33,212 bases of DNA, from positions 1 through 33,212 of the forward strand of contig JAQTZZ010000046.1 in the NCBI GenBank assembly GCA_028687545.1. Reading direction: 5' to 3'. Of the stretch, positions 7,881-22,622 are shown piece by piece. Under the pieces are notes generated by a model. It was not told the DNA's origin and did not search any database. It saw only the letters and a program-made list of their open reading frames with translations. The stretch is from Candidatus Wallbacteria bacterium (GTDB lineage Bacteria > Muiribacteriota > JAQTZZ01). The translations under genes were made by a program, and so were the position numbers. Position 1 is the first letter of the stretch, and each line of letters opens with the position of its first letter.

Positions 7881-9527
7881 TTATTTATACTTCTGCAACT
7901 CCTCCGGCACATACCAGTGCCTGAAATTGTAAAAAATGCCGGCAGGAGCTGCTTCGATGCCGTGGAAGCGCTTGCTGACTGTAAAAATATCATCAGTGGA
8001 AAAGAGAAATGTGTATGGCTGGTCTTCATGAATGATAGCCTGGAGTTTGTAATAAATTTCCTTTAATTTAATCCTGTCAGGAGTGATTCGGCCAAGCTCA
8101 CACAATCTGTCTACTTCAGGGTTACGGTAAGAAATGAAATTATCTCCTGAATATCCATTTTTTTCATCCGGTATTTGTGAAGAGTTCCATGTCTCAAATG
8201 GATCATAGAGCAGATTTCCCTGCAGCCAGCAGCCAATGTTGGCTTGAAAGTTATGATGATATTCCTGCTCTAAAAAGTTCGTCCATTCAAGCACTCGGAT
8301 CTTGACTTCGATTCCCGCTACTTTCCAGCAGTCTCTTATGATGTCGGCCATCAGTTTGGCAGTGGGACTTGCATTGTAGATGGTAAGCTCCAGCGAAAAT
8401 TTCATTCCATCACGCTCCAGGATCCCGTCCCTGTCTATGTCTTTCCACCCGGCTGCGGAAAGGATTTTCCCTGATAGTACTGGATCATAGGGATAGGGAG
8501 CGATCGACTTGTCGCAAGCCCAGCTGGTAGGCAGAAAATCAGTTGCAATAGGCTTTCCGAATCCATAGCGCACGTTGTCGATCATGCTCTGGCGGTCAAT
8601 GGCGATTGTCAGGGCCTGCCGGATATTTCTGTCTTTCAGGATCGGGTGATCCAGGTTGTAAGCGATATAAAAATAGCTGAATGCCGGGCAGCTGTAAATG
8701 TTGAATTTATCGTGGAATTCCTTTGACTTGGCCTGTTTCGTATATTGATCAGGAGTGAGCGTCATCAAATCCAGTTCACCTCTCAGCAATGAAAGCAGGA
8801 CTGCTGAGTCATCAGGAATGATTTTAAAGATCACCCGGTCCAGAAACGGCCTTCCTTCATGATAATCCTGATTTGCTACCAGTACGACCTGTTCGGCAGG
8901 CTGCCATTCCAGAAATTTGAACGGACCGGTTCCGATCGGGTGCCTGTTGTATTCAGAGGTCTTGAAATTTTCCCGCTCATAGATATGTTTGGGTATTATC
9001 TGTGAATCTATTTTCAATGGGATATCCTGAGTCGGGGTTTTCAGGATTACTTTAACTTCATGAGTGTTGACGACTTCGATTGTTTTCACTTCTGAAAAAG
9101 ACCACCTGAGAGAGCTTCCTGATTCAGGGTCCATGATCTTTTCAATTGTGAACTTGACATCATCCGCTGAAAAGTTCACGCCATCATGCCAGCGGACACC
9201 TTTTTTCAGGTAAAAGGTGATTGCCATGTTATCAGCTGATACTTCCCAGGAATCAGCTAAGCAGGGAGACAGTTTCAGATCACCATTGACCTGGGTCAAC
9301 GAGTCGAAAATTAAATTTATTACCTGATCAGAGCCGGTATCCTGCGATAACAGGGGATTGAGTGTAGCCGGATCGCTGAGTGCTTGTTCAATAATACTAT
9401 CCCCGTATGACGGGGATAGTAAAATCTCACTGGTTTGCCCCTTTGTCATGATTTCATCCGTAGCGTTTGCCCAAAAGATCGGAAGCATCAGACAAATTGT
9501 AAGCAGTTTCAGGCCTGAAGCATTCAT
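7881..9527 (-). CDS. ABC transporter substrate-binding protein, family 5 (peptide type), 548 aa
   Basis: Family 5 SBPs (DppA/OppA-like) capture peptides or similar ligands for an ABC importer. The start is ATG 9527, after AAAGGGAAAG; the first 20 residues are a Sec signal peptide without a lipobox. Typical family blocks follow: SPSYGD..I..AL.DP.TLNPLL, LADSWEVS, FYLKKGVRWHDGV.FSADDVKFTIEKIMDPESG, IGTGPFKFLEW, and the end RFHGIEAAPAGIFYNFRHWYVPEELQKYK. Unlike the SBPs at 20823, 24136 and 30425, it lacks the roughly 50-residue insert between the signal peptide and QTSEI. No permease or ATPase genes are near. It may feed a distant transporter or serve as a periplasmic peptide sensor. It lies upstream of the metallopeptidase gene in the same direction. 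Confidence 0.92.
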   Translation of the reverse strand: MNASGLKLLTICLMLPIFWANATDEIMTKGQTSEILLSPSYGDSIIEQALSDPATLNPLLSQDTGSDQVINLIFDSLTQVNGDLKLSPCLADSWEVSADNMAITFYLKKGVRWHDGVNFSADDVKFTIEKIMDPESGSSLRWSFSEVKTIEVVNTHEVKVILKTPTQDIPLKIDSQIIPKHIYERENFKTSEYNRHPIGTGPFKFLEWQPAEQVVLVANQDYHEGRPFLDRVIFKIIPDDSAVLLSLLRGELDLMTLTPDQYTKQAKSKEFHDKFNIYSCPAFSYFYIAYNLDHPILKDRNIRQALTIAIDRQSMIDNVRYGFGKPIATDFLPTSWACDKSIAPYPYDPVLSGKILSAAGWKDIDRDGILERDGMKFSLELTIYNASPTAKLMADIIRDCWKVAGIEVKIRVLEWTNFLEQEYHHNFQANIGCWLQGNLLYDPFETWNSSQIPDEKNGYSGDNFISYRNPEVDRLCELGRITPDRIKLKEIYYKLQAIIHEDQPYTFLFSTDDIFTVSKRFHGIEAAPAGIFYNFRHWYVPEELQKYK

Positions 9528-9573
9528 GTTCTTTCCCTTTCTGCTCAGTGAAAGCTGAGTATGACCTGTTTTT

Positions 9574-9607
9574 ATTATATCAAAAATAACAGCTCGCATT
9601 TCGAGTT
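9574..9607 (-). promoter_or_regulatory. Probable promoter with palindromic operator for the SBP gene at 7881-9527
   Basis: Minus strand TATAAT (9574-9579), preceded by TTTTTGA, exactly as in the promoter at 32246-32251 and similar to 22647-22652 (TTGATATAAT). Upstream lies the inverted repeat CTCG-N5-CGAG (9593-9605). No -35 consensus is present, so an activator or repressor may act at the palindrome. Confidence 0.5.
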
Positions 9608-9811
9608 GGATTTTATTTGGAAAAAACAGTCTTTCGCCGCCACTTGCATAATACATCTTTTACTGAGCTTTTACCTGGTCAAAGAAACATTTTGAATTGC
9701 AATTTCATTCAGCAGTGCCGCTTACATTGACCAGTTAAAGATCATCGAAGACTGTTATCAGCCTGAGTTTACCCGCACGAAGGATGATTACAGGACTCGA
9801 TCCCCTTGAGG

Positions 9812-9838
9812 GATTATTGATTGCAAAGATCAATAATC
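9812..9838. repeat. Perfect 10-bp inverted repeat, possible operator or hairpin
   Basis: GATTATTGAT (9812-9821) and ATCAATAATC (9829-9838) are exact reverse complements around a 7-nt loop. There is no T-run immediately after it on either strand, so an operator for a dimeric regulator 40-70 bp before the SBP gene is at least as likely as a terminator. Confidence 0.5.
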
Positions 9839-9879
9839 ATTTGACGACCTTGAAACACGGGGTCATTCCAGCTTTGGTG

Positions 9880-9885
9880 TATAAT
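9880..9885 (+). promoter_or_regulatory. Possible -10 hexamer directly before the SBP lipoprotein gene
   Basis: TATAAT at 9880-9885 would place the transcript start at or next to the ATG at 9892. The gene has no clear Shine-Dalgarno site, so a leaderless mRNA is possible. No good -35 lies 16-18 bp upstream. Confidence 0.35.
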
Positions 9886-9891
9886 GTAGAA

Positions 9892-11481
9892 ATGAAATTT
9901 ATGCTCATGATCTGCTCAGCACTGCTCTTAATCGGCTGCGGAATGGCTCATCAGAAACTTCAATTTTTAGGTACCACCGAAGTTTCGGAAAATTCTGCAG
10001 ATCTGTCTCCGGCATATGGTGACTGTATCATTAACACTCTTTCCTCAAATCCGATTACTCTTAATCCCCTCACAGCTACTGAAGATGAAGCACAATGGGT
10101 AATCGGGCTGATGTTCAACGGACTCTTGAAAAAAGACCGCAACGAAGAGTGGACAGGGGATCTTGCCGAGCGCTGGGAACAGACTGCTGAAGGGAAAATC
10201 CTGACAATTCATCTGAAATCAGGTGTGAAATGGCATGATGGAATCGGATTCGATGCTTCTGACGTGATGTTCACCTATCAGAAAATCATGGATCAGAGCA
10301 GCGAGAGTTTCAACCAGATTAAAACAGTTGAGATTCTTGACCCTCTGACAATCAGGATCACTTATGACACTCCTTTGGTATCAGCTTTGTCCCAGTGGAG
10401 TTTCTGGATACTTCCCAGGCATTTGTTAGAGCAGGAAAACATGGATAGTCCCCGCTGGAACCGGGCTCCAATCGGCACAGGGCCATTCCGCTTTTCAGAG
10501 TGGATTCCTGATGAGCGCATTATTCTGACCGGCAATGACAGTTATTTCGATGGCCGTCCTTTTTTATCCCAGTACATCTTCCTCATCCAGCCGGACGAAT
10601 CAATGAAATTCCTTGCCCTGAAGAAGGGAGAAATCGATGTTTTATGCCTGAACGGCGATCAGATCACAAAGCAGGCGGGTGAGGAAAGATTCAGGAATCG
10701 TTTCAATATTTATCAATTCCCGGTCAACAGCTTCTGTTCAATAGCTTATAACCTGGCTTTGTCGAAATATCAGGACAAAAGAGTACGCCAGGCTTTGACC
10801 ATGGCGATCGACAGGGAACAGATTATCCGGGAAATCGAGTATGGTTACGGCCAAGTGCACAGCGGACCATTTTCCCGGACCTGCTGGGCCTATGATGAAT
10901 CTGCGAACCCCCTTCCTCACGACCCTGCCAGAGCCAGGGCATTGCTGCTGGAATCCGGCTGGCAGGAGACTCAGGAAATTATCTTTTCCTATACAGCCAA
11001 CGCAACAGTTAAACTGATCGCCGCCTTGGTGCAGAAGGGCTGGAATGATATCGGCCTGAAAGTCAGGGCTGAATGCCTGGCGTGGCCGGTACTCTGGGAA
11101 AAATTGCAGAAACGCGATTTTGAAGCTGGATTTTTTTCCTGGAGCGGTTTTGGTGATCCTGACGATTATTCGCTGATCTGGGAATCCGGGAATATCCCTG
11201 ACAAGACCGGAAGCAATGGTTTCAACTTTTCATCCTATAAAAATCCTGAAGTGGACCGACTTTTTGAACTGGGCAGGATAACCATTGATCCGGCAAAACG
11301 GAAAGAAATTTACCAAAGAATTCACAAGTTGATCAATGACGATCAGCCATACACTTTTATCGAGAGCTACGAGGCGATCTGGGCGGTGGACAAGCGTTTC
11401 CACGGCATCGAACCGACCAGGAGAGGAATTTTCTACAACATCGAAAAATGGTATGTGCCTGCGGAGCTGCAGAAGTATTAA
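9892..11481 (+). CDS. ABC transporter substrate-binding lipoprotein, family 5, 529 aa
   Basis: The start is ATG 9892 rather than the longer in-frame ATG at 9784, because it gives a lipoprotein signal (MKFMLMICSALLLIGC) with lipobox L-I-G-C; C16 would carry the lipid. It is the only SBP here with a lipobox. The family signature is complete: SPAYGDCIINTLSSNPITLNPL, LAERWEQT, VKWHDGIGFDASDVMFTYQKIMD, IGTGPFRFSEW, and the end IEKWYVPAELQKY. It is the most divergent of the five intact copies and the closest relative of the fossil at 5720-5776. It is divergently oriented from the SBP at 7881-9527. Ligand probably peptide; no transporter partner is visible. Confidence 0.92.
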   Translation: MKFMLMICSALLLIGCGMAHQKLQFLGTTEVSENSADLSPAYGDCIINTLSSNPITLNPLTATEDEAQWVIGLMFNGLLKKDRNEEWTGDLAERWEQTAEGKILTIHLKSGVKWHDGIGFDASDVMFTYQKIMDQSSESFNQIKTVEILDPLTIRITYDTPLVSALSQWSFWILPRHLLEQENMDSPRWNRAPIGTGPFRFSEWIPDERIILTGNDSYFDGRPFLSQYIFLIQPDESMKFLALKKGEIDVLCLNGDQITKQAGEERFRNRFNIYQFPVNSFCSIAYNLALSKYQDKRVRQALTMAIDREQIIREIEYGYGQVHSGPFSRTCWAYDESANPLPHDPARARALLLESGWQETQEIIFSYTANATVKLIAALVQKGWNDIGLKVRAECLAWPVLWEKLQKRDFEAGFFSWSGFGDPDDYSLIWESGNIPDKTGSNGFNFSSYKNPEVDRLFELGRITIDPAKRKEIYQRIHKLINDDQPYTFIESYEAIWAVDKRFHGIEPTRRGIFYNIEKWYVPAELQKY

Positions 11482-11535: not shown

Positions 11536-11580
11536 TACAACGCAATACAACTTTCGGAGCATATCCTGCCATTGTATTAT
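11536..11580 (+). promoter_or_regulatory. Type II activator promoter (two TACAAC motifs, -10 TATTAT)
   Basis: TACAAC at 11536-11541 and 11546-11551 are 10 bp apart. The second motif begins 29 bp before TATTAT (11575-11580), which is followed by TACTTTTAAG. The same spacing and a near-identical downstream sequence (TACTTTAAGG) occur at 15038-15082 and 18137-18181. It would drive the propeller protein at 11636. Confidence 0.7.
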
Positions 11581-11587
11581 TACTTTT

Positions 11588-11611
11588 AAGATCACAAGCT
11601 GACATGATCTT
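11588..11611 (+). other. 5' leader hairpin before the propeller-protein gene
   Basis: AAGATCA (11588-11594) pairs with TGATCTT (11605-11611) around a 10-nt loop. It begins just after the predicted transcript start and ends 25 bp before the ATG. It may stabilise the mRNA or take part in control. Confidence 0.4.
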
Positions 11612-11635
11612 CATTCCAGACACTAAGGGGTAAGT

Positions 11636-12541
11636 ATGAATAGAATCCTGATTTCTTTGAGTATGTTGCTGTATTGCCTGGCCTATGCTGGAACTCCGGA
11701 AACAGGAAACTGCATGGATGGAGATCGTCAGGCCAGGATCGTGTTTGTTTCCTTTCGCGACAACAATCACGAGATATACAGCATGAACGAGGACGGAAGC
11801 GATCAGACTAGACTTACCAGTACCAGCGCATCTGAGTGGGATCCCTGTTTTTCTCCGGACCAGAAATTGATCGCTTATGCGATCAATTATGTAAATGATG
11901 GAAAGAATTCTGAAATATACATTATGAACAGCGACGGCAGTGGAGTCCGGAAGCTTACAGATTTAACAACTGGTGTTTCTTCACCCAGATTCACTCCAGA
12001 TGGAAAAAAGCTGATTTTCAGTGAAGACATGGATGGGAAAACCAATATTTTTGCCCTGCCTCTTGAAGGCGGCAAGCTCGAAAAAATCACGGATATTGAA
12101 AGCGAACTTGCCCAGCCTTCTTTTTCCCGGGATGGCAAAAAAGTTATTTTTCAATACAGGGGTTTTGCGGGTGAGAATGATTTATACATTGGTACTGTTA
12201 TCTCAGATGGTTCGGGATTGCTAAAAATCCGTGATAGATCTTCATATCCCTGCTTTTCCCCGGATGGATCCAGGATTGCCTGCTTTGATTTCAGCAAGGG
12301 CCCTGATCAGACAGGATTCATTCTGATGGATTCAACTGGAAAAAATGAAAGCATGATGTTCAAGACATCAAATCCCGGTGGAATCTGCTTTTCTAGGGAC
12401 GGCAGCCGCTTGATATTCTCCAATGCAGATTATGTACAGCATTTGCATGGAACCGGCGAAATTTATTCAATCAAGCTTGATGGAACTGACCTGAAAAAAT
12501 TAACCTGCATTTCTGATAACCTGCTCCCTAACGCATACTGA
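11636..12541 (+). CDS. Secreted TolB-like beta-propeller protein (PD40 repeats), 301 aa
   Basis: Signal peptide MNRILISLSMLLYCLAYAG, then repeated blades of the WD40-like/PD40 type: IVFVSFRDNNHEIYSMNEDGSDQTRLT, FSPDQKLIAYA, EIYIMNSDGSGVRKLTDL, FTPDGKKLIFSED, FSRDGKKVIFQ, FSPDGSRIACFD, FSRDGSRLIFSN, GEIYSIKLDGTDLKKLT. Such propellers bind other proteins or peptides; TolB itself belongs to the Tol-Pal envelope system, but the N-terminal TolB domain is absent here, so it should not be called TolB. AAGGGG precedes the ATG. The type II promoter and a leader hairpin lie upstream. Function unknown; a binding or display role among the exported proteins here is an inference. Confidence 0.85.
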   Translation: MNRILISLSMLLYCLAYAGTPETGNCMDGDRQARIVFVSFRDNNHEIYSMNEDGSDQTRLTSTSASEWDPCFSPDQKLIAYAINYVNDGKNSEIYIMNSDGSGVRKLTDLTTGVSSPRFTPDGKKLIFSEDMDGKTNIFALPLEGGKLEKITDIESELAQPSFSRDGKKVIFQYRGFAGENDLYIGTVISDGSGLLKIRDRSSYPCFSPDGSRIACFDFSKGPDQTGFILMDSTGKNESMMFKTSNPGGICFSRDGSRLIFSNADYVQHLHGTGEIYSIKLDGTDLKKLTCISDNLLPNAY

Positions 12542-12591
12542 TAAGGGGAGGGTGCTTTAGTCCCTCTGCTTCTGGCGAAAAAGTGTGTCTT

Positions 12592-12696
12592 GAATTTCAC
12601 ACCACTCTTATCCAGAATCCCGTCTCCATCACAACCTTTCCAGGCATCATACTCCAGAAGTTTCAAGGCTGCTTGTTGATCAAAGAACAGGGGTGG
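12592..12696 (-). pseudogene. Internal fragment of a substrate-binding-protein gene
   Basis: Thirty-five minus-strand codons read PPLFFDQQAALKLLEYDAW and then KGCDGDGILDKSGVKF. They align with the intact SBP at 20823 (PYPFDPQAARKVLADAGW, then KDDDGDGILEQKGVKF). The match stops abruptly on both sides, so only a middle piece remains. It lies between the propeller gene and the proline-rich gene, which are on the opposite strand. Confidence 0.75.
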
Positions 12697-12752
12697 GATT
12701 TTATTTTGCCAGCAACATAAATCTGTAATAAAATAGGTTTATTGGAGGGAAA

Positions 12753-13622
12753 ATGAAATTTGTATTTTCAGTATTACTTTTCACTTTGAGCCTGTCCATA
12801 GCTCTGGCATCAGAGCAGCAGAATTTCCAACCTGAGAATTCATTCATACTGCGCAAGCCTCCAAAGCCACCGCTTCCTCCACCTCCTCCGCCTCCACCTC
12901 CGCTACCACATCCGCCATCTCCCTCTAACCTTCCGATTCTGCCCACGCCTTCGGATAATGATAATGATTCACAGCCCTCGGTTCAGCCTGCAGCGCACAA
13001 TGAAAACAATGAGCCTGCGCAACCTTCAGAACAGCCTTCACAGCCTGAACCAGGCGACTCCCAGGTAAAACCTCCTGCACCCGGCCCTGATGCGCAGCCT
13101 TCACCTGTGAAACCGGACTCGAGTTCTGATCCGCAAGGGATGTCTGCTCCCCGGACAGACAGCTCTGAAAATTCGATCAACTCCGAGGTAGATCCGAAAA
13201 AAAACAATCCTGGTAGTCAACCGAAGCCCACTCGTATCATGAAAGCCAATGTCAATACAGCTTCAGAGGATGAACTTGCCGTTGTCCTACCCAGATCGCT
13301 GGCTGAAAAGATTCTGGCTTTCCGCGCGAGAAACGGCGGGATCGGGAGTCTTGATGAATTAAAGATAATCTTTGGCGAAAAAAACTACCAGCAGCTGGCC
13401 GGCCTTCTCACTATTGACGACAAAGACAGAAGTATCAGGCTCAGAGTTTCCGTTCTTACAAGATATGAACTCAAAATCCTGGGCATAGCCGACTCTGAAG
13501 CTGCAAAAATCCTGGATATGATTGAGATTAGCAGAAAGAAGGACAGGGAATACACGAAAAAGGATCTTGATGCGGAATTCCCAGCAGCTTCTGCGTCGCT
13601 CAAGGACTATCTTGTTCCATGA
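12753..13622 (+). CDS. Secreted proline-rich protein with ComEA-type helix-hairpin-helix domain, 289 aa
   Basis: GGAGG lies before the ATG; the signal peptide is MKFVFSVLLFTLSLSIALAS. A polyproline tract (about 36-58) is followed by a Pro/Gln/Ser/Asp-rich linker to about residue 160. Then comes a helix-hairpin-helix unit, VNTASEDELAVVLPRSLAEKILAFR, followed by NGGIGSLDELK, like ComEA and the GspK family. A second, weaker helical repeat may follow (residues 225-289). In ComEA the domain binds DNA during uptake. In an exported protein of this layout it could bind DNA outside the membrane, or only mediate protein contact. The long disordered linker suggests it spans cell wall or periplasm. The neighbours give no direct hint of a competence operon. 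Confidence 0.75.
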   Translation: MKFVFSVLLFTLSLSIALASEQQNFQPENSFILRKPPKPPLPPPPPPPPPLPHPPSPSNLPILPTPSDNDNDSQPSVQPAAHNENNEPAQPSEQPSQPEPGDSQVKPPAPGPDAQPSPVKPDSSSDPQGMSAPRTDSSENSINSEVDPKKNNPGSQPKPTRIMKANVNTASEDELAVVLPRSLAEKILAFRARNGGIGSLDELKIIFGEKNYQQLAGLLTIDDKDRSIRLRVSVLTRYELKILGIADSEAAKILDMIEISRKKDREYTKKDLDAEFPAASASLKDYLVP

Positions 13623-13685
13623 TTCAAGGCAACCCGGCAGCAGGACAAGCGCGGCCTCGGCATCGAATTGTTAGATTACTGAATG

Positions 13686-13712
13686 AAAAAAAAAGGGGCC
13701 TTGGACAGCCCC
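13686..13712 (-). terminator. Rho-independent terminator of the repeat-linker gene
   Basis: On the minus strand, GGGGC (13708-13712) pairs with GCCCC (13695-13699) around an 8-nt loop and is followed by nine T (13686-13694). It lies about 30 bp after the stop of the gene at 13741-14931. Its arm resembles the terminator at 24064-24096 (GGGGCTGT). Confidence 0.85.
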
Positions 13713-13740
13713 GATGGAGGGAGTTTTGAAATTCAGTGTT

Positions 13741-14931
13741 TTATTTAGCGTGTTTATGGCTGCTCTTTTGGGCTTTCACCATCAGTTCAAGTAATTTTTC
13801 GGAATTTTTACAAATCCCTTGAAAATCATTTTGCGAGAATGCCTGTCCCACTGAATAGCCCTGCTGGAACGCCGCATAGGGCTTGTACACCTTAGCCAGG
13901 GCATAGTCCAGGACTTTTCCAGCCCCAATTCCAATGTCGGCCAGATCCTGATCTGTACCCAGTTCATGATGCGCTGTAGCAATTATGGCAGCGCAAACTT
14001 TTCCATTATTGTCATCGAGTTTTTCCAGGAATGTATCTGCAATTTCGATCAACTTATCAGCATCATTCGGGACTGGGTCTGCAGGCGTCCAGCAATGTGT
14101 GTTACCATCCGTAGCTCCGCCTGAAGTCCACCAGGTCCCAGAAAGATCTTCGGCAGTGGGTGGGTCGCTGTCAGGTTCATCGGGAGTGACGTCAGGTTCA
14201 TCTGGAGTGACATCAGGCTCATCTGGAGTGACATCAGGCTCATCGGGAGTGACATCAGGCTCATCGGGAGTGACATCAGGTTCATCGGGAGTGACATCTG
14301 GCTCATCGGGAGTGACATCTGGCTCATCGGGAGTGACATCAGGTTCATCGGGAGTGACATCTGGCTCATCATCTCGAATTAGATCACCTTTCTGCATAGC
14401 CCGGCAGACAGCCATGTATTTATTGTTTCCTGACAAGCATGAAGCTTCAGCAGCGAAGCCAAAATAGCTGATCTCACCTGCTCCCCATTTCCAGGCCTTA
14501 ACTGCAGTTTTAATTCCTTTCCGCAGATTCTTGCCAGACCAGCCCAATGCAATGGCACTTTCAATCGCAGGCCTGAGAATCGAGCTCTGGGTTTTGAAAT
14601 CGCGATAGCTGGCCGGGGTCAGGATCAGCTTTCTGCCTTTCTGTGAAATAGCGAAGCAGACCACTGAAGATCTTAAATCATTTGCCTGTGCATTCCATGC
14701 CATTCTGGCCTGAATCAGTGAATTTTTCACCACTTCTTTGGCATTGATCTGGGTTACTGCCAGAACTTCGGCCATGTTCTGAAATCCGCAGGCCGTTGTT
14801 TCGCAGAATGAGCTTGTCAGGATCTTGCCGCCCTTGTCGGTTTCCACCTGTACTCCGATCACCCCGACCAACTTATCTTTTGATTTTGCATCTGCCGCTG
14901 AAACCATCAGTAAAACGAACAGGATTACCAT
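13741..14931 (-). CDS. Secreted two-domain protein joined by an acidic DEPDVTP repeat linker, 396 aa
   Basis: I do not recognise a family. ATG 14931 begins a signal peptide (MVILFVLLMVSAADA). Domain 1 (about 16-185) contains four conserved-looking cysteines and an alanine-rich alpha/beta pattern. Nine 21-bp repeats encode DEPDVTP units (about 188-253). Domain 2 (about 260-396) includes TWWTSGGATDGNTHCWTP and a helical end rich in Lys and His. The linker is acidic and proline-bearing, as in surface proteins with spacers. In the same frame upstream lies a short ORF with a much better ribosome site (14935-14982), separated from this start by a TAG and one further codon. The type II promoter at 15038-15082 drives transcription, and a terminator closes the unit. 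Confidence 0.75.
   Translation of the reverse strand: MVILFVLLMVSAADAKSKDKLVGVIGVQVETDKGGKILTSSFCETTACGFQNMAEVLAVTQINAKEVVKNSLIQARMAWNAQANDLRSSVVCFAISQKGRKLILTPASYRDFKTQSSILRPAIESAIALGWSGKNLRKGIKTAVKAWKWGAGEISYFGFAAEASCLSGNNKYMAVCRAMQKGDLIRDDEPDVTPDEPDVTPDEPDVTPDEPDVTPDEPDVTPDEPDVTPDEPDVTPDEPDVTPDEPDVTPDEPDSDPPTAEDLSGTWWTSGGATDGNTHCWTPADPVPNDADKLIEIADTFLEKLDDNNGKVCAAIIATAHHELGTDQDLADIGIGAGKVLDYALAKVYKPYAAFQQGYSVGQAFSQNDFQGICKNSEKLLELMVKAQKSSHKHAK
14171..14370. repeat. 21-bp tandem repeat (nine full units) inside a gene
   Basis: Units of the form TCAGGTTCATCGGGAGTGAC plus one base repeat nine times with a few silent changes (TCAGG/TCTGG, CATCG/CATCT), then a partial copy. They encode DEPDVTP on the minus strand. 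Unit number is likely to vary between strains. Confidence 0.92.
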
Positions 14932-14934
14932 GAA

Positions 14935-14982
14935 CTACATACTCCATTTTCTTGACGAACATTCGCATACTTTAGACTTCAT
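14935..14982 (-). CDS. 15-codon leader ORF ending in an in-frame amber codon
   Basis: ATG 14982 follows GAGGAGG at ideal distance and encodes MKSKVCECSSRKWSM, then TAG (14935-14937). One codon later, in the same frame, is the ATG (14931) of the secreted protein. Either this is a regulatory leader with reinitiation, or a nonsense mutation split a longer N-terminus, or the TAG is read through. Confidence 0.5.
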   Translation of the reverse strand: MKSKVCECSSRKWSM

Positions 14983-15085
14983 ACTTCCTCCTCAGCGCCT
15001 GATTGACGCTCTTGTCTACTTTGCAATCCTTAAAGTAATCATAAAACCACCTGAACGATTCAGATAGTTGTATCAGGTTGTATTA
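14978..15085 (-). repeat. Duplicated promoter-leader segment, copy 1
   Basis: About 105 bp similar (roughly 80 percent by eye) to 18077-18184, including an exact 20-bp core in the leader (minus strand, ATTACTTTAAGGATTGCAAA). It covers the type II promoter, leader and Shine-Dalgarno. TACTTT and AAAGTA can pair in the leader RNA. Confidence 0.8.
15038..15082 (-). promoter_or_regulatory. Type II activator promoter of the repeat-linker gene
   Basis: Minus strand: TACAAC at 15077-15082 and again at 15067-15072 (10 bp apart); the second begins 29 bp before the -10 TATGAT (15038-15043). No -35 consensus at 17 bp (TATCTG), so an activator bound to the repeats is likely. Confidence 0.75.
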
Positions 15086-15111
15086 TTGAATTGGTTTGGA
15101 TTTTTTCAATC

Positions 15112-15152
15112 TTCAATACCAATATGTGCCAAAGGCTCGCCTAAGTATTGAA
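15112..15152 (-). other. Inverted repeat after the regulator gene
   Basis: TTCAATAC (15112-15119) pairs with GTATTGAA (15145-15152), with a smaller GCC-TTT-GGC stem inside. It lies just after the regulator's stop on the minus strand. There is no strong T-run, so it is a weak terminator candidate or transcript-end structure. Confidence 0.3.
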
Positions 15153-15164
15153 ATGCGGTACTGA

Positions 15165-17843
15165 TTATTCCTTGAAAATTATGCAATGTTTCACTGAGGA
15201 ATTAAAATAATACCCTCCCCGGTCGTGAGAGGTGAGGATGAAACGCACACCTTTTTCATCGCCGAGTTTTTTCCGCAGCCTTAAAATGGTGGGTCTGAAG
15301 TTGTTCCCGTCAACAGCATAGTCAAATTTCCGTTTCCAGACCTGTTCAAAAAGCTTTGGAGTCCCGATAATGCGTCCCGGTTTTCTGGCTAAAGCAAAAA
15401 GCAGGGAAACAAGTATAGTCTTCCCGAAAAGGTCTACTGGCTTTCCGTCAACCAGCAGCTCAGATTCTGTAAAGTCGATGAAGATTTCAAAATCCATTTT
15501 TCTCTGCCGCAGGTCCCTGAGCGCACCCGGTTCAGCAAAGCGTCTGGTAACACCATTGCAGAGCACGCAGATGCCGGTTCTTTTCTGCTCTAACAGCCGC
15601 TCCACATCTGAGACATAACGACGGACTCCATCATCCAGACCTGAAGTGAGTTTGCTGAGAAGATCCTGAAACTCCCTGAAAGTTTTTTCCGCTTCCTGCT
15701 GCCTGTTTGTCAGTTGAAACGCTTTGAACAGACAGTATTTTACCCGTGCGACCGAGGATGGAGAAAGTCTATCCAGACTGTCACTGACTTGCATGATTTC
15801 CGAGATAGCTTTATCAGCCTGTCCCGCAGCCAGTAAGAAGGGTGAGCTCTTGATTATGAAAAGTAACCCATAATAAGAATTGTTCAATTTTATCATTGCT
15901 GCCTTCGCCTGCTCGAAGGCAGCCTCAGCTTCGGCAAAACGCTGCAGGCAGGTAAATAGATAGCCCTTCTCTGCATGTGTATCGAACTCATAATCGCTGT
16001 CTTTTACAATCAGGCTGATTTCCAGGGCTCTGTTCTCATAATCCAATGCCTCTTCATAATTCCGGGTAAGGACTTTCAGATATCCGAGCGAAGAATATGC
16101 CCCGAGCTGCCTAAGAAGGTTGCCGCGTCTTTGGCCCATTTCCAGCCCATCCAGCATAAGTCTTTCCGCTTCTGGGTATTCACCCATCCGGCAGAGGGCC
16201 ACCCCCTGACGGCCGATGGCGATGTTCAAAAGGCTTTCAGTCCTGTTCTTCCGGCAGAGTATCTCAGCTTTCCGGGCGTAATCCAGTGCCTCGTCGGGCT
16301 TCTCTGTATAGAGCTTGATCACTGATCCCCAGCAGTAGAACTTGATTTTCAGGATCTCGTTTTCTTCCAGAAGCCGCTCTTGAGCCATGGATTTCAGAAT
16401 ATTTTCTGCACCAGGATTGTCACCGCAGAGAGTAAGGCAGATGGCGATCTGGAGCCTGGCAAGCAATCTGTTTTTTTCCGAGTCGCAGCAGGCGAGTGCT
16501 TTTTCAAAGTGCTCCCTGGCATGCGGAAAATCAGAACGATTGTAGCAGACGACACCTGACAGATCATGGCGCCTCCACCCGCTGATTCCATGGATGATCT
16601 TCTCTGCCTCATCCTGGTTTAACATGGCCAGTTGCTTGACATAAGCGTAATTCAGTTCCTCGCTTCTGATCCCCAGGGTTTCTATGGCGTCACGCAACAG
16701 AGGCAGCAGATCCTGGGGCTGGTCCTCAGTCAGATGGTTGACTTCCACAAGCTCCACAAGCATCTGAGCGGCGCGGTCCAGTTTCCCTGATCTCACGAAC
16801 TGATAATAAGCCTCGCGCAGCATTTCCATGCTCGCCTGACCTGCCGAATGCAGTGATTCTCCTATCCGGCCATGCAACTTACTGATTTCCGCCTGCGTCA
16901 TCTTGTGACTGACGAATTGCCTGAGCACATCGTGCATCCAGTAATTTCCCTCCAGGTCGAATTCCAGCAGTCCCTGCTTTCTGAGCGAAGCGAGGATAAC
17001 ATGGTCTGTTTCAGGGTGCATTTCAAGGATAGAATCCTGATTGACCGGAATCCTTAGCAGACTGAAAGTTCTAAGCAGAGAAACCGAGTGTACATCCAGT
17101 CCAGCCCAGAACATGGAATTGAAGTATTCCTCAGATTTCTCCTGCATGGCGTGCTCCAGCAGGTCCAGATTCCGGACTGTGTTTTTCCCTGAAACCACCA
17201 GTCCGATCAGGAGCTTCACCAGCAGTGGATGTCCTCCTGTCAGTCTGAACAGCACTTCTGTTAATTTTCCTGCCCCTTGCTCGTATCCGTGAAAAGACAA
17301 AAGCCTTGTCACCATGGAGCCCGATTCTTCACGATCCAGATACTTAAGAATGTGGGTATAGACACCGGCTGAAGCCAGGGTTCCCAGCTCCGGCACGATC
17401 CGCGAGGCGATGATAAGCTTCCCGGACCGCATTTCATGGGTTGCTTCCACCAGGCTCCTGGTCAGGCTGTCTTCCACATATTGAAAATCATCGATCAGCA
17501 GGGCCATCGGAAGTTCGTCGATCCTCTCAGCGATCTGCTGGGGATCGATCTCTACTCCATTGTTTTCCATCTTACCTGTCAGTGAATTCAAACGGTCCAG
17601 GATTGCGGCATAGAAATCCCCTGCATTCCAGCCATTCCTGCAGTGGATCAGGCTCACCTGATTCGGGAATTTTCCTTCCACCTGGAGATGAATGGCGAGC
17701 TCATTGAGCAGCACGGATTTTCCCATCCCTGGAAGCCCTACGATGAACACGCAGCCAGTGCAATTGACCCGATTCCTTAAAATCTCGAAATCCCGGCTGC
17801 GGTCGGTGCGGAAGGAGTCGTTTTTATTTCCCTGATCCGGCAT
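15165..17843 (-). CDS. STAND-type ATPase/TPR transcription regulator with C-terminal OmpR-type winged helix, 892 aa
   Basis: Probable signal-integrating transcription activator. Walker A is GLPGMGKS (36-43); Walker B is ALLIDD (114-119); KLIIASR follows as the sensor strand. Residues about 330-740 form TPR-like helical repeats (for example EALDYARKAEILCRKN, EAEAAFEQAKAAM), the usual ligand or partner platform. The C-terminus (about 785-885) matches Trans_reg_C: LLVDGKPVDLFGKTILVSLL, GRIIGTPKLFEQVW, ILRLRKKLGD and ILTSHDRGGYYF. MalT has the same ATPase-repeat-DNA-binding order but a LuxR helix-turn-helix; SARP proteins have the OmpR-type domain at the N-terminus. This permuted combination is unusual. 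It lies 49 bp after the small membrane-protein gene and likely shares its type II promoter. The ATG has no strong Shine-Dalgarno site, suggesting low or coupled translation. Confidence 0.85.
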   Translation of the reverse strand: MPDQGNKNDSFRTDRSRDFEILRNRVNCTGCVFIVGLPGMGKSVLLNELAIHLQVEGKFPNQVSLIHCRNGWNAGDFYAAILDRLNSLTGKMENNGVEIDPQQIAERIDELPMALLIDDFQYVEDSLTRSLVEATHEMRSGKLIIASRIVPELGTLASAGVYTHILKYLDREESGSMVTRLLSFHGYEQGAGKLTEVLFRLTGGHPLLVKLLIGLVVSGKNTVRNLDLLEHAMQEKSEEYFNSMFWAGLDVHSVSLLRTFSLLRIPVNQDSILEMHPETDHVILASLRKQGLLEFDLEGNYWMHDVLRQFVSHKMTQAEISKLHGRIGESLHSAGQASMEMLREAYYQFVRSGKLDRAAQMLVELVEVNHLTEDQPQDLLPLLRDAIETLGIRSEELNYAYVKQLAMLNQDEAEKIIHGISGWRRHDLSGVVCYNRSDFPHAREHFEKALACCDSEKNRLLARLQIAICLTLCGDNPGAENILKSMAQERLLEENEILKIKFYCWGSVIKLYTEKPDEALDYARKAEILCRKNRTESLLNIAIGRQGVALCRMGEYPEAERLMLDGLEMGQRRGNLLRQLGAYSSLGYLKVLTRNYEEALDYENRALEISLIVKDSDYEFDTHAEKGYLFTCLQRFAEAEAAFEQAKAAMIKLNNSYYGLLFIIKSSPFLLAAGQADKAISEIMQVSDSLDRLSPSSVARVKYCLFKAFQLTNRQQEAEKTFREFQDLLSKLTSGLDDGVRRYVSDVERLLEQKRTGICVLCNGVTRRFAEPGALRDLRQRKMDFEIFIDFTESELLVDGKPVDLFGKTILVSLLFALARKPGRIIGTPKLFEQVWKRKFDYAVDGNNFRPTILRLRKKLGDEKGVRFILTSHDRGGYYFNSSVKHCIIFKE

Positions 17844-17892
17844 AACAGGATTCTACTAATTAGAATGAACATTTTGCAAGGTCCCCCTGAAT

Positions 17893-18081
17893 CTACAATG
17901 CTTCCAGGCTCAGCAGACCATCGTCATCCATCTTCAGCTCGATCCGGTTGTGAACCCACTGCCTGAACTCAATTTTATGCTGATTGACCTGGCGGGAATC
18001 CCTGTAGCTCCAGAGCAGCAGAAAAATACTTGCTATTCCGAGAAAACTGCCTCTCAAAGCCATTGGAAGGTTATACTCCAT
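17893..18081 (-). CDS. 62-aa single-pass membrane protein upstream of the regulator
   Basis: ATG 18081 is preceded by GAGGAGG at good distance and by a type II promoter and leader, so it is a real gene. The sequence begins MEYNLPMALRGSF, has one hydrophobic segment (about 13-27, FLGIASIFLLLW) and then a charged tail (SYRDSRQVNQHKIEFRQWV) ending DDDGLLSLEAL. No family recognised. Being first in the operon with the large cytoplasmic regulator, it may tether, sense for or inhibit it. The positive-inside rule is ambiguous. Confidence 0.65.
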   Translation of the reverse strand: MEYNLPMALRGSFLGIASIFLLLWSYRDSRQVNQHKIEFRQWVHNRIELKMDDDGLLSLEAL

Positions 18082-18184
18082 ACTGCCTCCTCAGCGCTTG
18101 ATTGACGCGCATGTCTACTTTGCAATCCTTAAAGTAATTATAAAAAGATCAGATCGGTTCTGACAGTTGCATCAGGTTGTATTA
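18077..18184 (-). repeat. Duplicated promoter-leader segment, copy 2
   Basis: Counterpart of 14978-15085, carrying the same promoter spacing, leader core and Shine-Dalgarno. It precedes the small membrane protein and regulator. Confidence 0.8.
18137..18181 (-). promoter_or_regulatory. Type II activator promoter of the regulator operon
   Basis: Minus strand: TACAAC (18176-18181) and TGCAAC (18166-18171), 10 bp apart; the second begins 29 bp before TATAAT (18137-18142). Since it precedes the winged-helix regulator's operon, autoregulation is plausible. Confidence 0.75.
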
Positions 18185-18244
18185 ATGATGAAATTAGAAG
18201 AGATTTGATCTCAGATGCGGGGATCCAAGGTGAAATATATTGAA

Positions 18245-18289
18245 TGCAACAAGATGCAACTGACATTCCGTTGCTATGATGACTATAAT
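18245..18289 (+). promoter_or_regulatory. Type II promoter facing away from the regulator operon, no obvious gene
   Basis: TGCAAC at 18245-18250 and 18255-18260; the second begins 29 bp before TATAAT (18284-18289). TGACAT, 17 bp before the -10, could act as a -35. TATAATGAAATCAG is identical to the -10 and start region of the type I promoters at 28103 and 32370. Downstream there is only a micro-ORF before the convergent ankyrin gene. Confidence 0.65.
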
Positions 18290-18318
18290 GAAATCAGTAT
18301 TAAGCTGGGAGGTACAAC

Positions 18319-18336
18319 ATGTGGTCTTTAATATGA
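18319..18336 (+). other. Five-codon micro-ORF with consensus Shine-Dalgarno
   Basis: GGGAGGT lies five bases before ATG 18319; the frame is MWSLI then TGA, and a second ATG overlaps the stop (ATGA) but ends after three codons. It may be a remnant of a deleted gene, a leader peptide or part of a small RNA. The rest of 18082-18387 holds only the two promoters. Confidence 0.3.
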
Positions 18337-18387
18337 AAAGCTGAATTCATCAAATGCAATGTATCAGAAAACTCGATCATGAGTTGA

Positions 18388-20736
18388 CTATTCCAGCATT
18401 TTAGCGATCTCCGCAACCTTGCCGACAATAGCTATTTCTTCTTCCTGGCAGCTTTTCCTCAACATATCCAATGCTGTATCCCCGTCTCTGTTTTTTGCCC
18501 TGGGGTCTGCACCTCCGTCCCGCAGGACTTTCAGAATCTGAAGCGCTTCGTCAGCAAGGGTTCCGTAATTATCTGCTGCCATATCCCGGCAGTAAAAATA
18601 CACCGCATAATGCAGTGGAGTTAACCCTGATCCGTCAGCCAAGTTGATATCTGCACCTGCTGCGATCAGTTTTTCTGTTTTCTGAAGGTAGCCCGGATGA
18701 TAAAACATTTCCACTGCGTAGGTTAATGGGGTCATGCCGAAATCAATTGCGTCAGGTGAAAATCCGGCTTGGACAAGCATTTCAATATATTCAGGCAGGC
18801 ACAACGTCAATGGAATAATTCTGTGGCTTGTGCCGTTCGGATAGACTTTTTCAGCCTCTCTGAGCCCGAGTCCGCCTTTTTTCAGAAGATAACGCACAAA
18901 ATCCTCATTCCCGTTTTCCTGTACTGCGTTGTCAAGCACCAGGCCGATCGTGCTTCTAAAATTGAATCCCTTTTTTTCTAGCATTCTGGCGGCTTCGATC
19001 CTGGGGCAGAGTGCCAGCAGAGTCCGGCCTTCTCTATCAGTGATCTGCGGATCTCCGCCCTGATCCAGGAATTTCTGGATCAGGGTGAAATAAACCTGAT
19101 CGCAGCAGAAGCTTTCTCCATGATCTATATTACAACGGCGATTTTTAAGCAGTTCGAGCAGAGGCAACAGCCCATCCCGTTTTTGAAACCATTCATCCTT
19201 TTCAGCGCTGAAATCAAAAGGCTCCAGGATATTAGCTCCGTTTGCCACTGCTTCCTGGAAAGCAAAGGGATTGCAAGTTATGCATATGTTCCGGGAAAAA
19301 GGCGGAGTTTCTTCTCTGCAGAATTGTTTCAGATATTCCTGGCATTCAGCATCCAGATGCATTTCCATCACACCCGCACCTTTGCTGTTTTTCGCTTCTG
19401 GATCTGCTCCATACTTGATCAGGCATTTGAGACCAGCAAGATTCAGTGCTCTGTTGAAAATCGGGGTATCTCCAAGGCTGTCTCTGGCATTTACATCAGC
19501 TCCGGCTTCGATCAGCGCTGACAAAGCTCCAGGATCAGTAACAGTATGCAGCGGAGTTTCGCCGTATTCTCCACCCCGCACATTGGGATCAAGACCTGCC
19601 TCCACTATCAGGCGGACAAAATCGCCGTTTCCCGCGCAATGCAGCAGGGTGTATCCTGGTTTTTCAACTGCATTCCTGTCCTGTTTCCGGGATTCGTATG
19701 ATTTTATATGTGCTGAAATTTCAAGAGTTGAGCTGTATTGTTCGGAAATGTCTATATTCCAGCGTGACTTTCTGAGCATCGGGTCAGCCCCGTGGGATAG
19801 AAGAATCCGCGCTTTTTCCGGCTGGCTGGTAAAATAAAAAAGAGGCGGAATCCCGAACCCGTCAAGAAGATCCGGAGATAGTCCCAGTTCAAGCAGCAGT
19901 ATGAGTACAGTTGGAGTGATGCTTCCACAATGGATTGGATAATAACCAGTGTAATCCGGAAAATCGTATCTGCAGCCTCTCTCGATCAGCAGTTCTGCGA
20001 TTTCCCTGGTTTTCACATGCGGTAGAGTTTGACTCGACCAGTGCTTCCAGTGGCAGACTTCTCCTGTTTGATCCATTGGTGCGGGAAACTGGAACCTGTA
20101 TTCCGCACCGTTACTGATCAGTACTTCCGCCACATCCACTCTATCCACCTCGGTCAAAGGACTGGATGACGGATAATCCGTTTTTGGCGAATATCCGTGA
20201 TCAATTAAATACTGGGCCACTTCAGGACTTTTTACATAGCAGAGAGGACTATAATGATTACTTTTTTTCCACGAATCCAGCTTCAGCTCAGCCGCCAGAT
20301 CGATGCTGTGGATTGCAGGCACGATTTCGCGATGGAGCTTGACAGCCCCTTTTTTCAGCATCAGCCTGAGCAGTCCTTCATCCTGTGAATCGTTAAGTAA
20401 GGAGTAAAGATCAGAGTCACTTTCCTTGCTGAAATCTCTGGCCGGGAATTCTGCTCTTCCCAGCAGATATTTCAGCACATCAAGTCTTCTGGCTTGGATC
20501 CCTGTATTAAATGCAGACAGGAGAACTTCAGTTGTCTTATCTGCAATCCTGTCGATCAGGTTTCCGAGCAGGGTAGTTTCGCCTGTTATCATGGCCAGAC
20601 GGATCTGTTCCTGCAGCGGAACTTCCAGGGTCAGACCGGCAGTTTCCAGAACAGCACAATCAACCCTCAGCGACATGAGCAGCACTGGCAGGAGTGGAAT
20701 GAACCGGCTGAATCCAATGAATTTATTGTTATGCAT
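18388..20736 (-). CDS. Exported ankyrin-repeat protein, 782 aa
   Basis: The signal peptide (MHNNKFIGFSRFIPLLPVLLMSLRVDCA) is followed by a long ankyrin solenoid. Well-formed repeats include GYTLLHCAGNGDFVRLIVEAGLDPN, GETPLHTVTDPGALSALIEAGADVN, GDTPIFNRALNLAGLKCLIKYGADPE, GMTPLTYAV..., and GLTPLHYAV... with GADPRAKNRDGDTALDML near the end. Many intervening repeats are eroded, so the whole protein may be one solenoid. Ankyrin repeats bind other proteins; export suggests a periplasmic or extracellular scaffold or inhibitor. The best Shine-Dalgarno (GAGGG) is better placed for a 4-codon ORF (ATG GCA TAT GCA TAA) overlapping the ATG at 20736, so initiation may be coupled. A type I promoter lies just upstream, in the gap after the SBP gene. 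Confidence 0.88.
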   Translation of the reverse strand: MHNNKFIGFSRFIPLLPVLLMSLRVDCAVLETAGLTLEVPLQEQIRLAMITGETTLLGNLIDRIADKTTEVLLSAFNTGIQARRLDVLKYLLGRAEFPARDFSKESDSDLYSLLNDSQDEGLLRLMLKKGAVKLHREIVPAIHSIDLAAELKLDSWKKSNHYSPLCYVKSPEVAQYLIDHGYSPKTDYPSSSPLTEVDRVDVAEVLISNGAEYRFQFPAPMDQTGEVCHWKHWSSQTLPHVKTREIAELLIERGCRYDFPDYTGYYPIHCGSITPTVLILLLELGLSPDLLDGFGIPPLFYFTSQPEKARILLSHGADPMLRKSRWNIDISEQYSSTLEISAHIKSYESRKQDRNAVEKPGYTLLHCAGNGDFVRLIVEAGLDPNVRGGEYGETPLHTVTDPGALSALIEAGADVNARDSLGDTPIFNRALNLAGLKCLIKYGADPEAKNSKGAGVMEMHLDAECQEYLKQFCREETPPFSRNICITCNPFAFQEAVANGANILEPFDFSAEKDEWFQKRDGLLPLLELLKNRRCNIDHGESFCCDQVYFTLIQKFLDQGGDPQITDREGRTLLALCPRIEAARMLEKKGFNFRSTIGLVLDNAVQENGNEDFVRYLLKKGGLGLREAEKVYPNGTSHRIIPLTLCLPEYIEMLVQAGFSPDAIDFGMTPLTYAVEMFYHPGYLQKTEKLIAAGADINLADGSGLTPLHYAVYFYCRDMAADNYGTLADEALQILKVLRDGGADPRAKNRDGDTALDMLRKSCQEEEIAIVGKVAEIAKMLE

Positions 20737-20822: not shown

Positions 20823-22622
20823 TTATTTATACTTCTGCAATTCTTCAGGCACGTACCAGTGGGGGAAATTATAGAAAATACCGGCAGGAGCCGGTTCTAT
20901 CCCTTGGATGCGCTTGGCTACAGCCCAGATTTCATTTGGGATGTAGAGGAATGTATACGGCTGATCTTCATGTATCACGGCCTGTAACCGGCAAAAAATC
21001 TCCCTGAGTTTTTCCCGGTCCATGGTGGCGTGTCCCAGTTCACAGAGCCTGTCTGCTTCAGGGTTATTATATGAAATAAAATTGAATCCTGAAAATCCAT
21101 TCTTTTTATCTGGGATCTGTGAGGAATGCCATATCCCATAAGGATCATGGGTGTTGGACAGCCCCCATCCTCCTATGTGGACCTGGAAGTTCTTCTCAGT
21201 TGATCGTTTCAGGTATTCTTCCCATTCCAGTATATTGATCTTCGTCTCGATTCCGATCGTTTTCCAGTAATCCCTCACCATCTCTACAATGAGTTTTCTT
21301 ACAGGATTGCCAACATTGATGTTTATTTCCAGGTTGAACTTCACTCCTTTCTGCTCCAGGATTCCGTCTCCGTCATCATCTTTCCATCCGGCATCAGCCA
21401 AGACCTTCCTTGCTGCCTGTGGATCAAATGGATAGGGGATAAGCGATTTGTTGCAGGCCCAGTGGGAAGGCGCGAAATCACCACAGGTAAGGGTTCCGAA
21501 ACTGTAAAGCACCTTATCGACGATTTCCCTGCGGTTGATTGCGAGAGTCAAAGCCTGTCTTGTTTTCTTGTCCTTCAAGACCGGATGGTTCAAGTTGTAA
21601 CCGATGAATGAATAGGAAGAATTCGCAGGATAGGTGAATACCCTGAACCGTTCGAGGAATTCCTTGGAACTGGCCTGCTTGAAATATTGATCCGGGGAGA
21701 GTTGCATCAGGTCCAGATCCCCGCGCAGCAGTGAAATCAAGGTCGCCGAATCATCAGGAATGGTTTTGATGATTATCCGGTCAAGAAAGGGTCTTCCCCC
21801 AAAATAGTCCGGATTAGCCTCCAGCACGATTTTTTCTCCCTTGCTCCATTCAACGAATCTGTAAGGGCCAGTTCCGACCGGATGCAGATTATTGGCCGAG
21901 GACCCGAAATCCTCTTTATCAAAAAGATGCTTGGGAATGATTGGGGGATTGATCCAATCTGCGAGATATGGGCTCGGTTTCCTGCAGGAGATTTTGATCG
22001 TGTAAGGATCAATGGTTTCAAAAGTTGCTGCATCTGTTAAATCCGTCAAATAAACTCTCAGGGGGCTCTCGACCTTAGGATCCAGGATTTTTTCCAGGGT
22101 GAACCTGACGTCCTCTGCGGTAAAATCCACCCCATCCTGCCAGCGGACTTTTTTTCTCAGGAAAAAGGTGATGACTGTGCAGTCCGATGAAATCTCCCAG
22201 GATGCCGCAAGGCTTGGAGTAAGTTCTAAATTTTTCCCCAGGTTCGTCAGGGTATCGAAAATCATGTAACTCACATCTGTGGAAGCATCGTCAGTTGAAA
22301 GCAAGGGGTTGAGGGTGATCGTTTCAGCAATAGTAGACTCAATGATAGTATCCCCATAAGACGGGGACTGTGAAATTTCGCTTGTCTGGTTTTTCAGCAG
22401 TTCATTGAAACTATTCTCAGCTTTCTCCAGAATGCTGTCCCTGTTTTTTTTCGAATCATTGAGAAAGGTCTTGTAGTCTGCGCTGGCTGAGGCAGTATCC
22501 TGGAGCACATAATGCTCGAACAGGGCTTTATACAGCGGGTCAGCATCAGTAGTTGCAGCCAGAAGGACCGGAAACAGCAGAAAAACCGTCAATAATTTCA
22601 GTCCGGGAGCTATCAGAATCAT
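20823..22622 (-). CDS. ABC transporter substrate-binding protein, family 5, with N-terminal insert, 599 aa
   Basis: Signal peptide (MILIAPGLKLLTVFLLFPVLLAA) without lipobox, then the insert shared by three SBPs here (KALFEHYVLQDTASASADYK, FLND.., up to QTSEIS), then the family core: SPSYGDTIIES, LNPLLSTDD, LAASWEIS, FFLRKKVRWQDGVDFTAEDV, VGTGPYRFVEW, DAGWKDDDGDGILEQKGV and the end HWYVPEELQKYK. Probably binds peptides in the periplasm. GGAG lies only one base before ATG 22622, unusually close. It is divergent from the repeat protein at 22756; the shared interval holds a type I promoter. The downstream ankyrin gene has its own promoter. Confidence 0.92.
   Translation of the reverse strand: MILIAPGLKLLTVFLLFPVLLAATTDADPLYKALFEHYVLQDTASASADYKTFLNDSKKNRDSILEKAENSFNELLKNQTSEISQSPSYGDTIIESTIAETITLNPLLSTDDASTDVSYMIFDTLTNLGKNLELTPSLAASWEISSDCTVITFFLRKKVRWQDGVDFTAEDVRFTLEKILDPKVESPLRVYLTDLTDAATFETIDPYTIKISCRKPSPYLADWINPPIIPKHLFDKEDFGSSANNLHPVGTGPYRFVEWSKGEKIVLEANPDYFGGRPFLDRIIIKTIPDDSATLISLLRGDLDLMQLSPDQYFKQASSKEFLERFRVFTYPANSSYSFIGYNLNHPVLKDKKTRQALTLAINRREIVDKVLYSFGTLTCGDFAPSHWACNKSLIPYPFDPQAARKVLADAGWKDDDGDGILEQKGVKFNLEININVGNPVRKLIVEMVRDYWKTIGIETKINILEWEEYLKRSTEKNFQVHIGGWGLSNTHDPYGIWHSSQIPDKKNGFSGFNFISYNNPEADRLCELGHATMDREKLREIFCRLQAVIHEDQPYTFLYIPNEIWAVAKRIQGIEPAPAGIFYNFPHWYVPEELQKYK

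Follow-up and report, generated by a model that had tools for sequence, protein, structure and literature searches.

The four paired TRCAAC sites in the DNA analyzed here (the window, 33,212 nucleotides from a Candidatus Wallbacteria genome) are probably activator-dependent promoters of the resident MalT-like winged-helix switch encoded at 15165-17843, one of 26 paralogues with clade-specific operators. More broadly, our analyses support a lineage-specific expansion of MalT-like regulators that have an OmpR-type output and act on secreted-protein genes through operators particular to the paralogue.

Four TRCAAC Promoters Are Confined to One Locus

The four predicted promoters are as follows.

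11536-11580, plus strand: promoter A; TACAAC 11536-11541, TACAAC 11546-11551, -10 TATTAT 11575-11580; predicted to drive 11636-12541
15038-15082, minus strand: promoter B; TACAAC 15077-15082, TACAAC 15067-15072, -10 TATGAT 15038-15043; predicted to drive 13741-14931
18137-18181, minus strand: promoter C, predicted to be autoregulatory; TACAAC 18176-18181, TGCAAC 18166-18171, -10 TATAAT 18137-18142; upstream of 17893-18081 and 15165-17843
18245-18289, plus strand: promoter D; TGCAAC 18245-18250, TGCAAC 18255-18260, -10 TATAAT 18284-18289; divergent from promoter C

The initial annotation had placed paired TRCAAC hexamers at these positions, and all four were recovered there, on the same strands and with no mismatches. 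It had also given a distance of 29 bp from the start of the second hexamer to the -10, which is exact at 4/4 sites (TATTAT, TATGAT, TATAAT and TATAAT), and had described the hexamers as overlapping the position of a -35. This last description needs correction: counted from the start of the -10, the second hexamer occupies -29 to -24 and a -35 with a 17-bp spacing would occupy -23 to -18, so that the hexamers instead abut the -35 on its upstream side. In dinucleotide-preserving shuffles of the window, with up to two mismatches allowed, the mean number of matches was 0.15 and none of 100 shuffles reached four.

A search of the genome (4.54 Mb in 108 contigs) with the pattern TRCAAC-N4-TRCAAC-N23-TANNNT, as proposed in the initial annotation, returned exactly four matches, all in the window. 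The bare pair TRCAAC-N4-TRCAAC likewise occurs exactly four times genome-wide, all in the window, and reversed-pattern controls for the bare pair and for the pair with a -10 gave no matches across the genome. Base composition predicts ∼2.4 bare pairs and ∼0.04 pairs with a -10, an expectation to be read in light of the pattern having been derived from these same four sites. Because the pattern was read off these sites, its absence from the rest of the genome is the telling fact. The full promoter pattern had no match in the 39 other genomes of the phylum.

Two other readings of the motif were discarded. A third, degenerate half-site downstream of the pair (TGAATC at 15038, AGAACC at 18137) is missing from the other two sites, and its distance of 19 bp from the -10 sets it apart from the promoter class described below. 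A -35 for an ECF σ factor does not fit either: the motif is a tandem repeat at too great a distance from the -10, which is itself TATAAT-like. Searches of the window for Rfam families and tRNAs gave no matches.

Kinship of the Four Promoters

Promoters B and C have in common a duplicated leader of ∼110 bp that includes the ribosome-binding site, and they evidently represent a recent duplication of promoter plus leader. Only 1 of 16 half-site positions and few leader positions differ between them, whereas the 23-bp spacer is strongly diverged, a comparison which suggests that the half-sites are under selection. By eye, the start of the promoter A leader (TTACTTTTAAGATCACAAGCTGACA) is similar to TTACTTTAAGGATTGCAAAGTAGACA of B and C, and promoter A may be an older copy of the same promoter. 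Promoter D has no flank in common with promoters A to C. Owing to duplication, the sites do not count as four independent events, and three of them may descend from one promoter. The two leaders themselves (14958-15082 and 18071-18181, both on the minus strand) are nearly unchanged, reading TTACTTTAAGGATTGCAAAGTAGACA..GCGTCAATCA.GCGCTGAGGAGG, and short hairpins may form close to the ribosome-binding site.

Genes Downstream of the Window Promoters

The genes assigned to these promoters, and a further promoter of the window, are listed below.

11636-12541, plus strand: secreted TolB/PD40 β-propeller protein, 301 aa (Pfam PD40, 2.5e-18; signal peptide by sequence); predicted target of promoter A
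13741-14931, minus strand: exported protein with tandem TPDEPDV repeats, 396 aa (ORF with a hydrophobic N-terminus); predicted target of promoter B
17893-18081, minus strand: small protein with one hydrophobic segment, 62 aa (ORF); first gene of the regulator operon
1792-1846, minus strand: promoter E, of the same class with another half-site type; TGTCAC 1841-1846, TGTCAC 1831-1836, TGCAGC 1821-1826, -10 AATAAT 1792-1797

As annotated initially, promoters A and B precede genes for secreted proteins, promoter C precedes the regulator operon and promoter D faces away from it; D, however, has no evident target gene. The predicted target of A matched the NCBIfam TolB model at 4e-36, which is below the cutoff, and neither the 396-aa nor the 62-aa protein had a Pfam match. 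Downstream of D are a ribosome-binding site, a 5-codon ORF (MWSLI, then stop) and the 3' end of a convergent ankyrin gene (18388-20736); this region (18245-18420, plus strand) possibly specifies an antisense or small RNA, or it could be the remnant of a deleted gene. Promoter E lies upstream of an FGE-sulfatase-type gene at 756-1607 (Pfam FGE-sulfatase, 6.4e-50).

Two further features of the window were observed. The 396-aa protein contains ∼10 tandem TPDEPDV heptapeptide repeats, and its frame (13741-15006, minus strand) extends above the ATG at 14931 to an earlier ATG with a strong ribosome-binding site, broken by one TAG between MKSKVCECSSRKWSM and FMVILFVLLMVSAADAKSK. The TAG falls between the n-region and h-region of one apparent signal peptide, and a nonsense mutation, re-initiation or read-through are all possible. 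The 33-kb window also encodes four family-5 extracellular solute-binding proteins (SBP_bac_5; 7881-9656, 9784-11481, 20823-22622 and 24136-25929), an unusual local expansion with perhaps further copies among the remaining ORFs.

The Window Regulator Is a STAND-TPR Protein with a Predicted OmpR/PhoB-Type Winged Helix

15165-17843, minus strand: regulator, 892 aa; STAND/NB-ARC ATPase at residues ∼15-330, TPR superhelix at ∼425-740, OmpR/PhoB-type winged helix at ∼785-885

The regulator matched Pfam AAA_22, NB-ARC, TPR_12 and Trans_reg_C (PF00486), the last over residues 812-876 at 9.8e-9 and 35.6 bits against a curated cutoff of 26.2. PDB profile matches were to SaeR, PhoB, AfsR, MalT and PH0952; the winged helix is similar to RstA, VicR and PhoB, and the rest of the protein to the PH0952 sensor, AfsR and MalT. 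The order of the Pfam domains, together with the matches to PH0952, AfsR and MalT, is that of a MalT-type protein, and the N-terminus is a STAND/NB-ARC ATPase and not the receiver domain of a response regulator. The GxxGxGK Walker A motif is invariant in the family alignment. An AlphaFold model of the winged helix (pLDDT 90) displays the N-terminal β-sheet, three helices and C-terminal β-hairpin of the OmpR/PhoB-type fold, and its best Foldseek matches were RstA (top), BaeR, VicR, YycF and PhoB.

OmpR/PhoB-type domains bind tandem direct repeats (PMC3264566), and the WalR/VicR operator is TGTWAH-N5-TGTWAH (PMC4168254); because of these kin, TGNNAC repeats fit the winged-helix domain. Repeats of a kind that suits such tandem binding adjoin the regulator gene, and the regulator is predicted to bind them.

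A Wider Promoter Class with a 10-bp Period

Promoters with TGNNRC tandem half-sites 10 bp apart, the last copy starting 28-29 bp before the -10, were found both in this genome and in its sister G001 (Ca. Wallbacteria STB_16, a family-level relative). The pair at exactly 29 bp therefore describes the four window sites well and is too narrow as a limit for the class, in which the distance is 28 or 29 bp and there are often three copies elsewhere. Triple TGNNRC sites with a 10-bp period numbered 24 vs. 1 in the reversed control in this genome and 14 vs. 1 in G001; the 38 other genomes of the phylum together had 77 matches vs. 60 in the control, with no clear excess. At an 11-bp period, which is the SARP, PhoB and WalR spacing, there was one triple match in each of the two genomes (controls, 0 and 1), hence no excess, and by this analogous triple pattern the two genomes do not have the 11-bp architecture of a WalR/VicR regulon.

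The triple sites were collected without reference to a -10. Among 29 nonredundant sites, 11 have a TATAAT-like hexamer with at most one mismatch 28 bp after the point where the last half-site begins, 9 have it at 29 bp, and any other offset from 6 to 54 accounts for at most two. In most cases a T comes directly after the last half-site, and next to it is a weak -35-like stretch such as TGGA, TTGA or TTCA. An agnostic scan for repeated hexamers found chance pairs at most loci too; thus, only the TGNNRC frame with its phasing, or genome-wide uniqueness, was trusted.

The Regulator Family Is Expanded in Two Genomes and Pairs with Operator Types

A winged-helix profile identified 26 members of the regulator family in this genome, 9 in G001 and 0 to 3 in each of the 38 other genomes of the phylum, and a search with the full-length alignment yielded, apart from distant STAND proteins, matches in Ca. 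Wallbacteria STB_16 alone. Identity of the paralogues to the window regulator is mostly ∼25%. Its closest paralogue (L039:7995-10757) is 35% identical and has no TRCAAC pair in the flanking stretches that were read, and the exact cognate motif was not traced to a relative. Separately, one regulator gene appears to be split over two contig ends, L086 (C98) and L045 (C86), in which case three family regulators would stand in a row.

Co-occurrence of motif and regulator in relatives, which the initial annotation had anticipated, was seen for the class in general, its clear excess being limited to the two genomes with an expanded regulator family. The exact TRCAAC form has no counterpart in the 39 genomes; since no orthologue of the window regulator was found in the relatives (the best match in the sister genome has 28% identity), the narrower comparison is uninformative. 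Several half-site types were found at the loci of family regulators.

L042: TGTAAC, three promoters
L044: TGATAC/TGATTC, two promoters
L047, L086 and, in G001, L062: TGAAAC
L039, L049 and L050: TGCNGC with a proximal TGCAAC or similar
L089: possible ATTCAC pair

Stretches up to 3.5 kb from a family regulator make up 4.4% of this genome and contain 7 of its 20 distinct triple sites (binomial P = 1.4e-5). TGATNY-N4-TGATTC promoters occur only twice in the genome and not in G001, one before the operon of the L044 regulator and the other before a gene for a papain-like protease ∼3.2 kb away; TGATAC/TGATTC is a second locus-private operator, beside TRCAAC. Operator type also follows the regulator tree. 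The L047 pair and L062, from different genera, form one clade (support 99), both with TGAAAC operators divergent from the regulator, and L039B, L049 and L050 form another (support 100), all with TGCNGC-type promoters directly downstream of the regulator. A recognizable operator is nearby for only ∼10-11 of the 26 regulators. TGTAAC promoters are scattered genome-wide, many far from any family regulator, and cannot be assigned to one regulator by position alone.

Genes for Secreted Proteins Follow Promoters of the Class

From the fetched loci, 42 promoter-like sites were collected, 36 of them with a gene close downstream. By a crude hydropathy test, 34 of these 36 genes specify a signal peptide, compared with 40% of the remaining genes at those loci (Fisher P = 3e-11); the loci had been picked partly for the motif and not for secretion. 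Many of the downstream genes encode hydrolases, identified here by Pfam.

L039, L042, L096, L098: Amidase_2 with SH3
L044, L089, L092 (twice): papain C1
L042: clostripain C11
L113: thermolysin M4
L117: M6 peptidase
L093: alpha-amylase
L101: GH10
L049: 3D domain
L127: beta-lactamase-type

In G001, promoters ∼110 bp apart with differing half-sites (TGTAAC, then TGTTGC/TGATAC) are stacked before one secreted-protein gene.

L112: stacked promoters at 1625 and 1735
L121: stacked promoters at 4524 and 4411

A Model for Local Activation, and Its Alternatives

The initial annotation proposed that the regulator at 15165-17843 activates the four promoters and itself. Local activation is well supported by the co-occurrence of class and regulators, the enrichment within 3.5 kb and the match of clade to operator, from which we infer binding and activation; the proposal is modified in that the regulator proves to be one of 26 paralogues, the sites are partly duplicates and D is without a clear target. 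In our model, the four sites would be σ70-type promoters whose operator is the 10-bp-spaced TRCAAC pair just upstream of a degenerate -35. The STAND ATPase and TPR sensor would keep the winged helix inactive until a ligand binds, upon which the regulator would oligomerize and its winged helices dock head-to-tail on the tandem half-sites, the 10-bp period placing successive domains on about the same face of the DNA. The bound winged helices could then assist RNA polymerase at the weak -35; with the last half-site directly before a poor -35, an activator would be well placed to aid σ region 4. The regulator would in this manner switch on its own operon and the adjacent secreted-protein genes, and other paralogue clades would use their own variants of the common TGNNRC half-site, most often in front of genes for hydrolases or secreted proteins. 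Binding of TRCAAC, activation and ligand gating are all predictions. There is precedent in AfsR, which couples an OmpR-type domain to STAND and TPR modules and activates at a weak -35, and in MalT, where ligand and ATP gate the STAND module (PMC10936776).

We considered whether ordinary OmpR-family response regulators, similar to WalR/VicR, run the tandem-repeat promoters while the STAND regulators are neighbors that act elsewhere. The WalR/VicR TGTWAH half-sites do resemble TGTAAC (PMC4168254), TGTAAC promoters are found at several loci that have no STAND regulator, and both genomes encode OmpR-type response regulators (L046:11450-12142 and L123:148-837). We nevertheless regard this as unlikely: WalR has an 11-bp period, for which there is no excess here, the clear excess of the class is restricted to the two genomes with the STAND expansion, the TRCAAC and TGATAC types are each confined to the locus of a single STAND regulator, and operator type tracks STAND regulator clade.

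Repression can also work through operators near a -35, and autoregulators are often repressors. It is on such general knowledge that one might take the protein to bind the TRCAAC repeats as a self-limiting repressor module, which we find very unlikely given that the sites stop short of the -35 position on its upstream side and cover neither the -10/-35 nor the start site, that the fixed 28-29-bp phasing to the -10 with a weak -35 is as expected for activators and that the nearest STAND analogues, MalT and AfsR, are both activators (PMC10936776). Least plausible, and in our judgment highly improbable, is that local duplication of a single promoter and its leader left the four sites as relics, with no common regulation by the resident protein. 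The duplicated leader of B and C, and the leader of A, which looks like a third copy, are what such relics would leave. Against this, divergence between B and C is much greater in the spacer than in the half-sites or leader, promoter D retains the pair and its phasing in an unrelated flank and unrelated loci repeat the architecture with different half-sites.

Beyond activation by the resident regulator, it is quite possible, if tentative, that ∼26 STAND-TPR-winged-helix activators have mutually orthogonal operators within the TGNNRC frame, each linking a different ligand to its own exported hydrolases, and that stacked promoters place some genes under two regulators at once, as at L112 and L121 of the sister genome. 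If true, this would amount to a readable regulatory code for an uncultured phylum, in which promoters, regulators and targets are paired from sequence alone, and would offer a natural set of regulator/operator pairs, of one fold and in one cell, in which to study the avoidance of cross-talk among paralogous activators. A further suggestion is that the group senses several substrates or prey signals, each answered by its own secreted proteases, amidases and glycosidases.

Comparison with Known Regulatory Systems

MalT, the maltose activator of E. coli, has the same plan of STAND ATPase, TPR-like sensor and C-terminal DNA-binding domain, and the family profile matches the MalT TPR structure 1hz4. 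MalT operators are direct repeats upstream of a weak promoter. The DNA-binding domain, however, is a LuxR-type (GerE) HTH in MalT and an OmpR/PhoB-type winged helix here, where Pfam gave no GerE match, and here there are 26 paralogues with differing operators.

AfsR and the large SARPs of Streptomyces similarly combine an OmpR-type domain, a nucleotide-binding oligomerization domain and TPRs in one protein, use direct-repeat operators and match the regulator in sequence across the TPR region. In SARPs, an N-terminal DNA-binding domain is followed by a BTA domain, and the operators are 11- or 22-bp repeats with the 3' copy 8 bp from the -10 (PMC10936776). In contrast, the DNA-binding domain here is C-terminal (812-876), Pfam detected no BTA domain, and the repeats have a 10-bp period with 22-23 bp between the end of the last copy and the -10. 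The AfsR model scored the regulator at 24.9 bits against a cutoff of 1430, which places it outside the SARPs.

With WalR/VicR and other OmpR/PhoB response regulators, the regulator has in common the winged-helix fold and tandem direct repeats (PMC4168254, PMC3264566), and the TGTWAH half-sites closely resemble TGTAAC (PMC4168254), but it has no receiver domain, the period is 10 bp rather than 11 bp and there are often at least three half-sites. Our literature search returned nothing on regulators in Wallbacteria, nor on STAND-TPR proteins that end in an OmpR-type domain, and the papers found do not describe MalT-like sensors with a winged-helix output in comparable numbers. The parts are of known kinds; their combination, their number and the divergence of their operators appear to be new.
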